Below are positions 38,533 to 40,605 of a DNA stretch of 64,000 bases, one piece after another. The stretch's first letter is position 1, and each line of letters starts with the position of its first letter. Source of the stretch: Acidobacteriota bacterium (GTDB lineage: Bacteria; Acidobacteriota; Vicinamibacteria; Vicinamibacterales; 2-12-FULL-66-21); the NCBI GenBank assembly GCA_016184105.1, contig JACPDI010000031.1, positions 1 to 64,000 of the forward strand. Direction: 5' to 3'. Position numbers and translations under genes: made by a program. The notes under the pieces were generated by a model that worked only from the letters and a program-made list of their open reading frames with translations, was not told the origin of the DNA and did not search any database.

Positions 38533-40605
38533 TCAGTGGATCTGTGCCGTGTCCTTCTTGTTCCCCAGACCCTGGATCTGCAGGGTGGGCGCGGCCGGCT
38601 CCTCCTTGAGCACGTACTGCCGGTACAGCTGCGCCATGCGCTCGTTTTCCTGCTGCTTCTTCCTCGACTCGTCGCGCGCGCGGAGCTTTTCCTCGCGTGC
38701 GTTCCTGGCGATGCCGGCTTCATCCAGATCGGTCTGGCGTCCGGCGGCAACCGCCGCCTCGTCGAGCACGAGGTTGTGCTCGGTCGACTGCAGGTTCACC
38801 TTCCTGCCGCCGGCGAAGATCTCGTGACGCCCGTGCTCCTCGTACCACTTGGCGAGCGTGGCTGTCATGTGCATCTTCTCGATGATGTTGCGCCAGCCGA
38901 TCCCCGTGTTGTACGCGCAGAAGGAGATTTCCCCTTCCTGCGTCGCATAGGGGATGATGCAGCGCTCCGTCCGCCGGAAGTCGTAGTTGAACAGGTCCTG
39001 GAACCACATGCCCGCGATGAACAGGAAGTTCCACCGGTCCGCGCGGCGCACGGCGATGTCCGCCTCGGTCCGCTCGCCGTCCACGCGGCCGTAGTCCCTG
39101 CCGGTGGCGCCGAACGTCTTGTCGAACTTCTTCATCAGGTCCGCGATCTTGAAGTGCGTCGGCGCCTTGAACGGATCGTAGTTCTTCATCAGCGCCAGCG
39201 CCATGCCGGCCATCGACAGGAACCTGCCCCGCGCGGCGTCGTTCACCTTGCGCAGGTCCTTCGCGAGCTGATCGGCGTGAAGGAACGCGGTGACCGGAAC
39301 GGCCTCCTTGGTTTCCTTGTCGATCATGACGGCCATGCCGACGCCGCAGTTCGGGTGGCAACCGCACGTCAGGTTCCCCCACTCCGCCGAGGGGCCGTGC
39401 ACCAGGTCCGCCCAGTCGGTGAACGTGCCCATGAAGGAGATCGGGAACCAGTCGCGCACCGGCTCGCCGAGGCCGGTCTGGTTCTTCACGTCGTGCGCCA
39501 GGTGCGACAGCGTGTAGCGCTGCGCCGCGCGGCGCTCCGGCGTCACCTCATCGTCGCGCCCGGTGAACGACACCGGCTGGAACGACAGGAAGTTGATCTT
39601 CTTCGGGTTGTCGAGCGCGAACTGGACGATGCGGCCGACCTGCTCGTTGTTGATGCCGTTGACGATGGTGGTCACCGGGACGATGTCGACGCCGGCCTTC
39701 CAGAGGTTCTCGATCGCGCGCAGCTTGACGTCGAACAGGTTGCCGACGAGGCGGTGCGAGTTGGCCGCGTTGCCGATGCCGTCGAACTGCAGGTAGACGT
39801 AGCGGAGGCCCGCTTCAGCCGCGGCCTTGCAGAACTCGGGGCTCTTGGCGAACTCGATGCCGTTGGTCGCGGCCTGGACGCTGTTGTAACCGACCTTCTT
39901 GCAGTACCGTACGGCGTCGAGGAAAAAGGGAGACAGCGTCGGCTCGCCGCCCGAGAACTGGACGGACAACTGCCGGCGCGGCTTCAGGGAAATCGCGTTG
40001 TCGAGCAGCGTCTTGATGTCCCCCCACGACAGCTCGTGGACGAACCCCACCTGGTTGGCGTCCATGAAGCACGGGTCGCACATCATGTTGCAGCGGTTGG
40101 TCAGGTCGATCGTGAGCACCGCGCCGCGGCCGTACTTGATCGTGCTGCTGCCGTGGTTGTGGAGCTTCTCGTCGGCGTGAGCCCGGATGTCGCTGCCCGG
40201 GAACACCTCTTCGAGGTGCTTGAAGAACGCGGGGTCGATCGCCATGACGTCTTCGAAGTGCCCGTGCAGCGGGCAATCCTTGACCATGAGGATCCGGCCG
40301 TCGCGCTCGATGATCTGGGCCTTGATCTCACCGATCTTCTCGGTGAGGAGCACGCGGTAGTCGCGCTTTCCGTCGATGATTTCCTGCCGCGCCTCGCGGA
40401 CGCAGACCGGGCAGAGCGAATCGGTTTCGCGCGGCCAGCCGAGCGGCGGCTTGACCTTCTGGTGCGACTTGAGCAGCGGCTGGTCTGACCAGGCGGGCGT
40501 GAAGGACGCGTTCGGCTTGATGCTATTGAGCGTGTCGAAGACGCCCCACGCCGCTCGGGCGACGTAGGTCAGCCCCTTTTCGGCGTACTTAATCGGCTTG
40601 TGCAT
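38533..40605 (-). CDS. Tes/MSS-like radical SAM protein (candidate membrane-spanning lipid synthase)
   Basis: 690 residues from the ATG at 40605, preceded by GGGGAGGAG; the longer reading runs into the hairpin repeat and is rejected. Layout: an N-terminal metal-type module with SLCPVC near residue 65, and VKDCPLHGHFEDV near 110; the radical SAM core with TNRCNMMCDPCF (CxxxCxxC) near 170 and FSGGEPTLSP; further cysteines in TCGCHPNCGVG; a C-terminal segment RRTERCIIPYATQEGEISFC followed by AYN; and a charged coiled tail. This order matches the archaeal tetraether synthase (MJ0619/Tes) family and its bacterial relatives proposed to couple fatty-acyl tails into iso-diabolic acid. Assignment is by remembered family features, not a search. 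No strongly hydrophobic segments were seen. Confidence 0.7.
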   Translation of the reverse strand: MHKPIKYAEKGLTYVARAAWGVFDTLNSIKPNASFTPAWSDQPLLKSHQKVKPPLGWPRETDSLCPVCVREARQEIIDGKRDYRVLLTEKIGEIKAQIIERDGRILMVKDCPLHGHFEDVMAIDPAFFKHLEEVFPGSDIRAHADEKLHNHGSSTIKYGRGAVLTIDLTNRCNMMCDPCFMDANQVGFVHELSWGDIKTLLDNAISLKPRRQLSVQFSGGEPTLSPFFLDAVRYCKKVGYNSVQAATNGIEFAKSPEFCKAAAEAGLRYVYLQFDGIGNAANSHRLVGNLFDVKLRAIENLWKAGVDIVPVTTIVNGINNEQVGRIVQFALDNPKKINFLSFQPVSFTGRDDEVTPERRAAQRYTLSHLAHDVKNQTGLGEPVRDWFPISFMGTFTDWADLVHGPSAEWGNLTCGCHPNCGVGMAVMIDKETKEAVPVTAFLHADQLAKDLRKVNDAARGRFLSMAGMALALMKNYDPFKAPTHFKIADLMKKFDKTFGATGRDYGRVDGERTEADIAVRRADRWNFLFIAGMWFQDLFNYDFRRTERCIIPYATQEGEISFCAYNTGIGWRNIIEKMHMTATLAKWYEEHGRHEIFAGGRKVNLQSTEHNLVLDEAAVAAGRQTDLDEAGIARNAREEKLRARDESRKKQQENERMAQLYRQYVLKEEPAAPTLQIQGLGNKKDTAQIH

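Follow-up and report, generated by a model that had tools for sequence, protein, structure and literature searches.

A distinct acidobacterial subfamily of Tes-type radical SAM proteins and its probable role in the synthesis of membrane-spanning lipids

The window, a stretch of 64,000 nucleotides from a Vicinamibacterales genome (assembly GCA_016184105.1, contig JACPDI010000031.1), carries on its minus strand an open reading frame (40605..38533) with a stop-free translation of 690 amino acids from an ATG codon. This was the only gene of the tetraether synthase (Tes) type in its genome, for which the assembly is 4.24 Mb in size and 96% complete. The gene, the sites recognised in its product and three neighbouring features that lie outside the proposed system were as follows.

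38533..40605, minus strand: Tes-like radical SAM protein of clade A (see below), candidate membrane-spanning lipid synthase (open reading frame, profile and structure matches, tree)
40607..40615, minus strand: ribosome-binding-like GGGGAGGAG directly 5' of the ATG (sequence)
40264..40413, minus strand: mononuclear (rubredoxin-like) iron site C65-x2-C68...C111-x2-H114 (alignment; ligands from PMC9433317)
40144..40167, minus strand: site that holds the N-terminal [4Fe-4S] cluster in Tes, here without cysteines (K147, H151, S154; alignment)
40069..40092, minus strand: radical SAM motif CX3CX2C (C172, C176, C179; Pfam, alignment)
39346..39366, minus strand: CGCHPNC, where C420 aligns with C338, in the C-terminal cluster region of Tes (alignment; C338 a presumed ligand)
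38917..39009, minus strand: M533, C549, Y553 and C563, the remainder of the C-terminal cluster site (alignment; Met439 and Tyr459 roles from PMC9433317)
38536..38796, minus strand: C-terminal extension (residues 604-690), lacking in archaeal Tes and for the most part in clade B (alignment)
41387..42364, minus strand: msrP, periplasmic methionine-sulfoxide reductase catalytic subunit (NF003767, E 1e-137)
40733..41266, minus strand: msrQ remnant, with the N-terminal segment in another frame and the C-terminus replaced by a repeat
40729..40816, no strand: inverted repeat of two perfectly matched 42-bp arms around a 4-nt loop, situated between msrQ and the clade A gene

Pfam models matched in the 690-residue protein were Radical_SAM and the HMPTM N-terminal zinc ribbon, the name of the latter being derived from the old label of Tes from M. 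jannaschii. The best NCBIfam model was Tes (NF045702, E 5e-93) with a score of 312 bits, which is below the equivalog cut-off of 450 bits, and the runner-up was TrsS at 206 bits. The best match among solved structures was PDB 7TOL, the M. jannaschii Tes (E 2.7e-62), and full-length orthologues with about 74-86% identity were present in dozens of genomes. The reading frame is real and its resemblance to Tes is far beyond chance. Judged from its sequence, the product is a Tes-type radical SAM protein, and the membership in the Tes superfamily that had been claimed in a sequence-only reading of this DNA was borne out, as Tes was both the best curated model and the best solved structure and came ahead of any different radical SAM family. 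A single-sequence AlphaFold2 model of the protein had a mean pLDDT of 39 and was unusable.

A maximum-likelihood tree placed the 690-residue protein inside a group supported at 100/100 (clade A), with a second group of paralogues (clade B) and, apart from these, the canonical Tes-like proteins (clade C). Clades A and B were grouped at 100/100, while the deeper branching order was unsure and some branches were long. Branching within clade A roughly tracked taxonomy, which suggests old vertical inheritance. The clade was marked by monophyly, conserved extensions, an HNHG sequence in place of the N-terminal cluster and a CxC beside the C-terminal cluster, and on the sequences compared it is a monophyletic, highly conserved acidobacterial subfamily distinct from canonical Tes. 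Clade C, the canonical bacterial Tes homologues, belongs to the same superfamily and is often co-resident with clade A, sometimes in neighbouring genes. The cysteines of the N-terminal cluster were kept in four of the six clade C sequences, and the closest members of that clade retained the full CxxxCxxC and shared 38-43% identity with M. jannaschii Tes, as against 28-32% for clade A.

The solved enzyme (Tes or GDGT-MAS, MJ0619, PDB 7TOL/7TOM, NF045702) holds an iron site (C9, C12, C33, H36), a radical SAM CX3CX2C motif, an N-terminal cluster bound by C73, C77, C80 and a histidine, and a C-terminal cluster with the labile Met439 (PMC9433317). The C-terminal cluster adjoins the lipid pocket, Tyr459 is close to the substrate carbon, and the reaction proceeds via a bond between the substrate carbon and a cluster sulfur, the C-terminal cluster being discussed as the cluster concerned, with no clear role assigned to the other metal sites (PMC9433317). 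The 690-residue protein was about 31% identical to Tes over 490 aligned positions and had in common with it the radical SAM core, the CxxC..CxxH iron site, most SAM contacts, the C-terminal [4Fe-4S] cluster region, the labile methionine and the active-site tyrosine. It differed from Tes by the missing N-terminal [4Fe-4S] cysteines, an added cysteine pair (C414, C416), extensions of about 57 residues at the N-terminus and about 85 at the C-terminus, a 22-residue insertion that separates the two halves of the clade A iron site, and a score under the model cut-off. The substrate of Tes is archaeol, whereas iso-C15 acyl lipids would be expected for clade A.

Ligands were compared in an alignment of 55 sequences, including 28 from clade A and 17 from clade B. 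The motifs quoted in the sequence-only reading as following Tes were all present, namely SLCPVC (C65, C68), DCPLHG (C111, H114), CNMMCDPC (C172, C176, C179), RCIIPYA (C549) and FCAYN (C563), but the agreement with Tes is partial, the cysteines of the N-terminal cluster being absent. Of the three Tes cluster sites proposed there, the radical SAM and C-terminal sites were kept and the N-terminal one was not, none of its three cysteine positions being occupied by cysteine in the 45 clade A and B sequences. Two histidines at that position (H149, H151) were invariant in both clades. In the alignment, C65, C68, C111 and H114 corresponded to C9, C12, C33 and H36 of the M. jannaschii enzyme, M533 to the labile Met439 and Y553 to Tyr459. 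The iron site, the radical SAM triad, C420, C549, C563, M533 and Y553 showed at most single exceptions across clades A and B, and the SAM-contact residues were mostly kept, R210 being an exception. The extra cysteines beside the C-terminal cluster, C414 and C416, were conserved in both clades, and a counterpart of C416 occurred in some clade C proteins also. Clade A retains all the residues linked to catalysis in the Tes of known structure, and the clusters themselves are predicted here from those residues.

A Tes-type match was found in 166 of 297 genomes across the phylum Acidobacteriota. Relatives within Vicinamibacterales carried one in 50 of 60 cases (43 of the 51 good genomes), mostly with 74-86% identity to full-length copies, and Acidobacteriaceae in 108 of 120 (83 of the 88 good ones), most of these being clade A; the clade A count in that family is slightly lower than the match count because a few genomes (e.g. 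G460 and G494) carry clade C only. The 77 genomes of Holophagaceae, to which Geothrix fermentans belongs, yielded no clade A; in four of them there were partial matches at about 30% and nothing more. Nor was clade A found in G. fermentans, G. terrae, G. paludis or one Thermoanaerobaculia MAG. Clade A is near-universal in Acidobacteriaceae and Vicinamibacterales and absent in the Holophagaceae examined. It was the sole Tes-type match in Occallatibacter savannae, Edaphobacter lichenicola, Granulicella mallensis, Terriglobus albidus and a MAG labelled E. aggregans, and the one such match in Chloracidobacterium validum (genome G149), while some other Acidobacteria carry canonical Tes besides clade A. 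Two record titles attached to the L127/L103 pair proved misleading: 'Candidatus Sulfopaludibacter sp. SbA3' was considered as a representative of subdivision 3 and rejected, its genome falling in one family with members of Vicinamibacterales, and a record titled 'Acidimicrobiia bacterium' was misassigned and belongs to a family of Vicinamibacterales.

Iso-diabolic acid has been reported at 33.2% in O. savannae (PMC12935467), at 11.8% in E. lichenicola and 26.4% in E. aggregans (PMC11354219), and among the main fatty acids of Chloracidobacterium (PMC12816986). Its reported occurrence is in subdivisions 1, 3, 4 and 6 of seven surveyed (PMC13274423). Luteitalea sp. TBR-22, of the class Vicinamibacteria (PMC8852301), falls in the order of the window, Vicinamibacterales (subdivision 6), in keeping with the acidobacterial origin assumed in the sequence-only reading. 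Solibacter usitatus makes brGDGTs with iso-diabolic acid undetectable (PMC10087280). The lipid data and the genomes come partly from different strains. Holophagae reportedly lacked iso-diabolic acid in a 2018 survey. The presence of clade A in Acidobacteriaceae, Chloracidobacterium and Vicinamibacterales as against Holophagaceae parallels the reported producers, a comparison across few taxa and deep clades in which the non-production of Holophagaceae is taken from that survey, and other traits of those deep clades would therefore fit equally well. Should the diacid of these producers be the product of a Tes-type enzyme, no candidate other than clade A was detected; an enzyme of the Mss (membrane-spanning lipid synthase) type may be responsible instead.

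No conserved operon was found around clade A across the phylum, and most genomes showed none that joins it to lipid genes. Of the 13 Acidobacteriaceae genomes that carry both clade A and clade C, eight have the two genes within about 13 kb of each other, mostly on the same strand, and the intervening genes are unrelated to lipids; these eight genomes are related and hence do not represent eight independent events. The arrangement was seen in several genera of the family (L247, L248, L250-L253 and others). In one genus, two genomes have fabH immediately upstream of a clade A copy (L032 9806-10870, L033 9547-10611). A second radical SAM protein of 367 residues with a MoaA/HpnH-like core was encoded directly upstream of clade A in L222 (6664-7767) and also in L223, an arrangement seen in one order of Acidobacteriota.

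In the window the clade A gene is preceded by msrQ and msrP, and these genes were found upstream of clade A, at 0.7-7 kb, in 13 of 20 relatives of Vicinamibacterales and beside it in none of the other lineages examined. The msrQ region (40733-41400) appears to have a 5' frameshift that leaves the first helix in another frame and to be truncated at its 3' end by the palindrome, damage which is either real decay or an assembly error. The palindrome, with the half-site GGGGTCAGATCCAGAATTC, is dispersed, with 21 matches in the genome when up to two mismatches are allowed, and its half-sites often form inverted pairs about 70-140 bp apart, as in REP-like elements. Further copies in the window were located at 41343-41387, 9418 and 10204. 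A working MsrPQ partner is unlikely, since msrQ has no in-frame N-terminal segment and ends in this dispersed repeat. The suggestion that a linked msrPQ system could protect the envelope from oxidation was not upheld, and msrPQ was rejected as a functional partner, the association being local to the order and msrQ being damaged here.

From the sequence family, the ligand conservation, the clade structure and the distribution we infer a substrate, a product and a mechanism, and consider it probable, at roughly two chances in three, that clade A, as a branch of the Tes superfamily specific to Acidobacteria, produces membrane-spanning lipids such as iso-diabolic acid and its kind. The role of membrane-spanning lipid synthase put forward in the sequence-only reading is accordingly plausible as a reading of the conserved catalytic sites and of a distribution that matches the reported producers. 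That the synthase of iso-diabolic acid is a Tes relative had been given there as fact; it is a published proposal rather than an established fact (PMC8941075, PMC11868695). Lipid-tail coupling is favoured because Tes is the best model and structure, the coupling-site residues are kept, clade A is supported at 100/100 and the distribution fits; the proximity to canonical Tes in eight genomes, the fabH neighbour in two and a PlsA/Ger-like enzyme in this genome also speak for it. Weighing against it are the score under the Tes cut-off, an identity to M. jannaschii Tes of only about 31%, the dependence of the distribution argument on deep clades, the lipid profile of S. usitatus and the lack of a conserved operon with lipid genes in most genomes.

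By homology with M. jannaschii Tes, a 5'-deoxyadenosyl radical generated at the C172/C176/C179 cluster would abstract a hydrogen at the tip of a phospholipid tail, an iso-C15 acyl or alkyl chain, and the resulting carbon radical would be trapped through C-S bonding to the C-terminal [4Fe-4S] cluster (C420, C549, C563 and the labile M533). A second radical on another lipid tail would then attack the held carbon to give an sp3-sp3 tail-to-tail bond. The clade A enzyme would dispense with the surface N-terminal [4Fe-4S] cluster, unlike archaeal Tes, perhaps as an adaptation to aerobic cells. We know of no demonstrated activity for any bacterial Tes homologue.

It is unlikely that clade A is instead a canonical Tes orthologue which makes brGDGTs from diethers as archaeal Tes does with GDGTs. 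The superfamily and the catalytic ligands are shared and Acidobacteria do produce brGDGTs (PMC10087280), but clade A branches outside canonical Tes without the N-terminal cluster cysteines and under the Tes cut-off, and those Acidobacteria that possess canonical Tes (clade C, about 43% identical to the M. jannaschii protein) mostly have it as a second gene.

Improbable too is a different radical reaction of clade A on lipid tails, such as C5/C6 methylation, ring formation or cross-linking, with the tails coupled by Mss or clade C. Known relatives do act on lipid tails, but the coupling-cluster residues are conserved in clade A and no clade C match was present in the E. lichenicola and C. validum genomes. 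Methylated or cyclic membrane-spanning products are of patchy occurrence, whereas clade A is near-universal in Acidobacteriaceae. Mss of Thermotoga and Bacillota, a protein with experimental support, has been proposed to carry out the same reaction on fatty acyl tails and is reported to have a Tes-like catalytic architecture (PMC13274423); it is known mainly from anaerobes and was compared with clade A by description only. Mss homologues have been reported for Acidobacteria of the Black Sea, 11 MAGs out of 97 (PMC11868695), which would suit a division of tasks in which clade A modifies the tails.

That clade A acts on a non-lipid substrate, its likeness to Tes being one of fold and cofactors only, is very unlikely. 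In its favour, M. jannaschii Tes itself once bore a misleading name, that of a pterin methylase, lipid genes are often not adjacent to clade A, and two extra conserved cysteines and two conserved histidines set the clade apart. Against it stand a distribution that matches the iso-diabolic acid producers and the linkage with canonical Tes, which was seen in several genera.

Synthesis of iso-diabolic-acid-type lipids by clade A can be extended to a more specific proposal, which we hold tentatively and at somewhat less than even odds. Clade A would be a dedicated, oxygen-tolerant iso-diabolic acid synthase that performs sp3-sp3 coupling without the N-terminal cluster, has been inherited vertically since early Acidobacteria and divides the labour with an often-neighbouring canonical Tes serving the diether route to brGDGTs.

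Bacterial Tes homologues were proposed as brGDGT candidates in 2022 (Zeng et al., PMC8941075), and in the available part of that study one homologue is given for E. aggregans (32%), where it is not set apart from canonical Tes and the missing cluster is unmentioned. It is very probably a clade A orthologue because the one Tes-type gene of the MAG labelled E. aggregans is clade A, while the Koribacter and Solibacter matches of 40-42% listed in the same part are probably of the clade C type. The following are new relative to the literature surveyed: clade A is distinct from canonical Tes, it lacks the N-terminal cluster while its coupling-cluster site is intact, it is near-universal in Acidobacteriaceae and Vicinamibacterales but absent in Holophagaceae, and it is linked with canonical Tes. 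Two Tes-type genes pooled in earlier surveys are now separated, and clade A alone is present in several measured producers. BrGDGTs and iso-diabolic acid underlie a widely used palaeothermometer for soils and lakes, and the literature surveyed contains no acidobacterial enzyme with a demonstrated role in producing them. Should clade A work by Tes-like chemistry, its natural loss of the N-terminal cluster would suggest that tail coupling can proceed without that cluster.

Other genes of interest in the same genome included one for a PlsA/Ger-like protein with two BcrAD_BadFG domains and a DUF2229 (L246 5806-9159, minus strand; G000:C44). BcrAD_BadFG domains are those of acyl-CoA dehydratase activases, and proteins of the PlsA/Ger type function in vinyl or alkyl ether formation, so that this organism may also make ether lipids. 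Ger of alkyl-ether producers has two activation domains, and sequence alone cannot separate Ger from PlsA (PMC13274423). The same locus encodes an AmmeMemoRadiSam-system radical SAM protein (L246 2772-3887, minus strand; TIGR04337, 294 bits). In the window, a 127-residue open reading frame next to the clade A gene (38071-38454) begins with an amidohydrolase-like IVDGHLH, gave no Pfam match and is perhaps a gene remnant.
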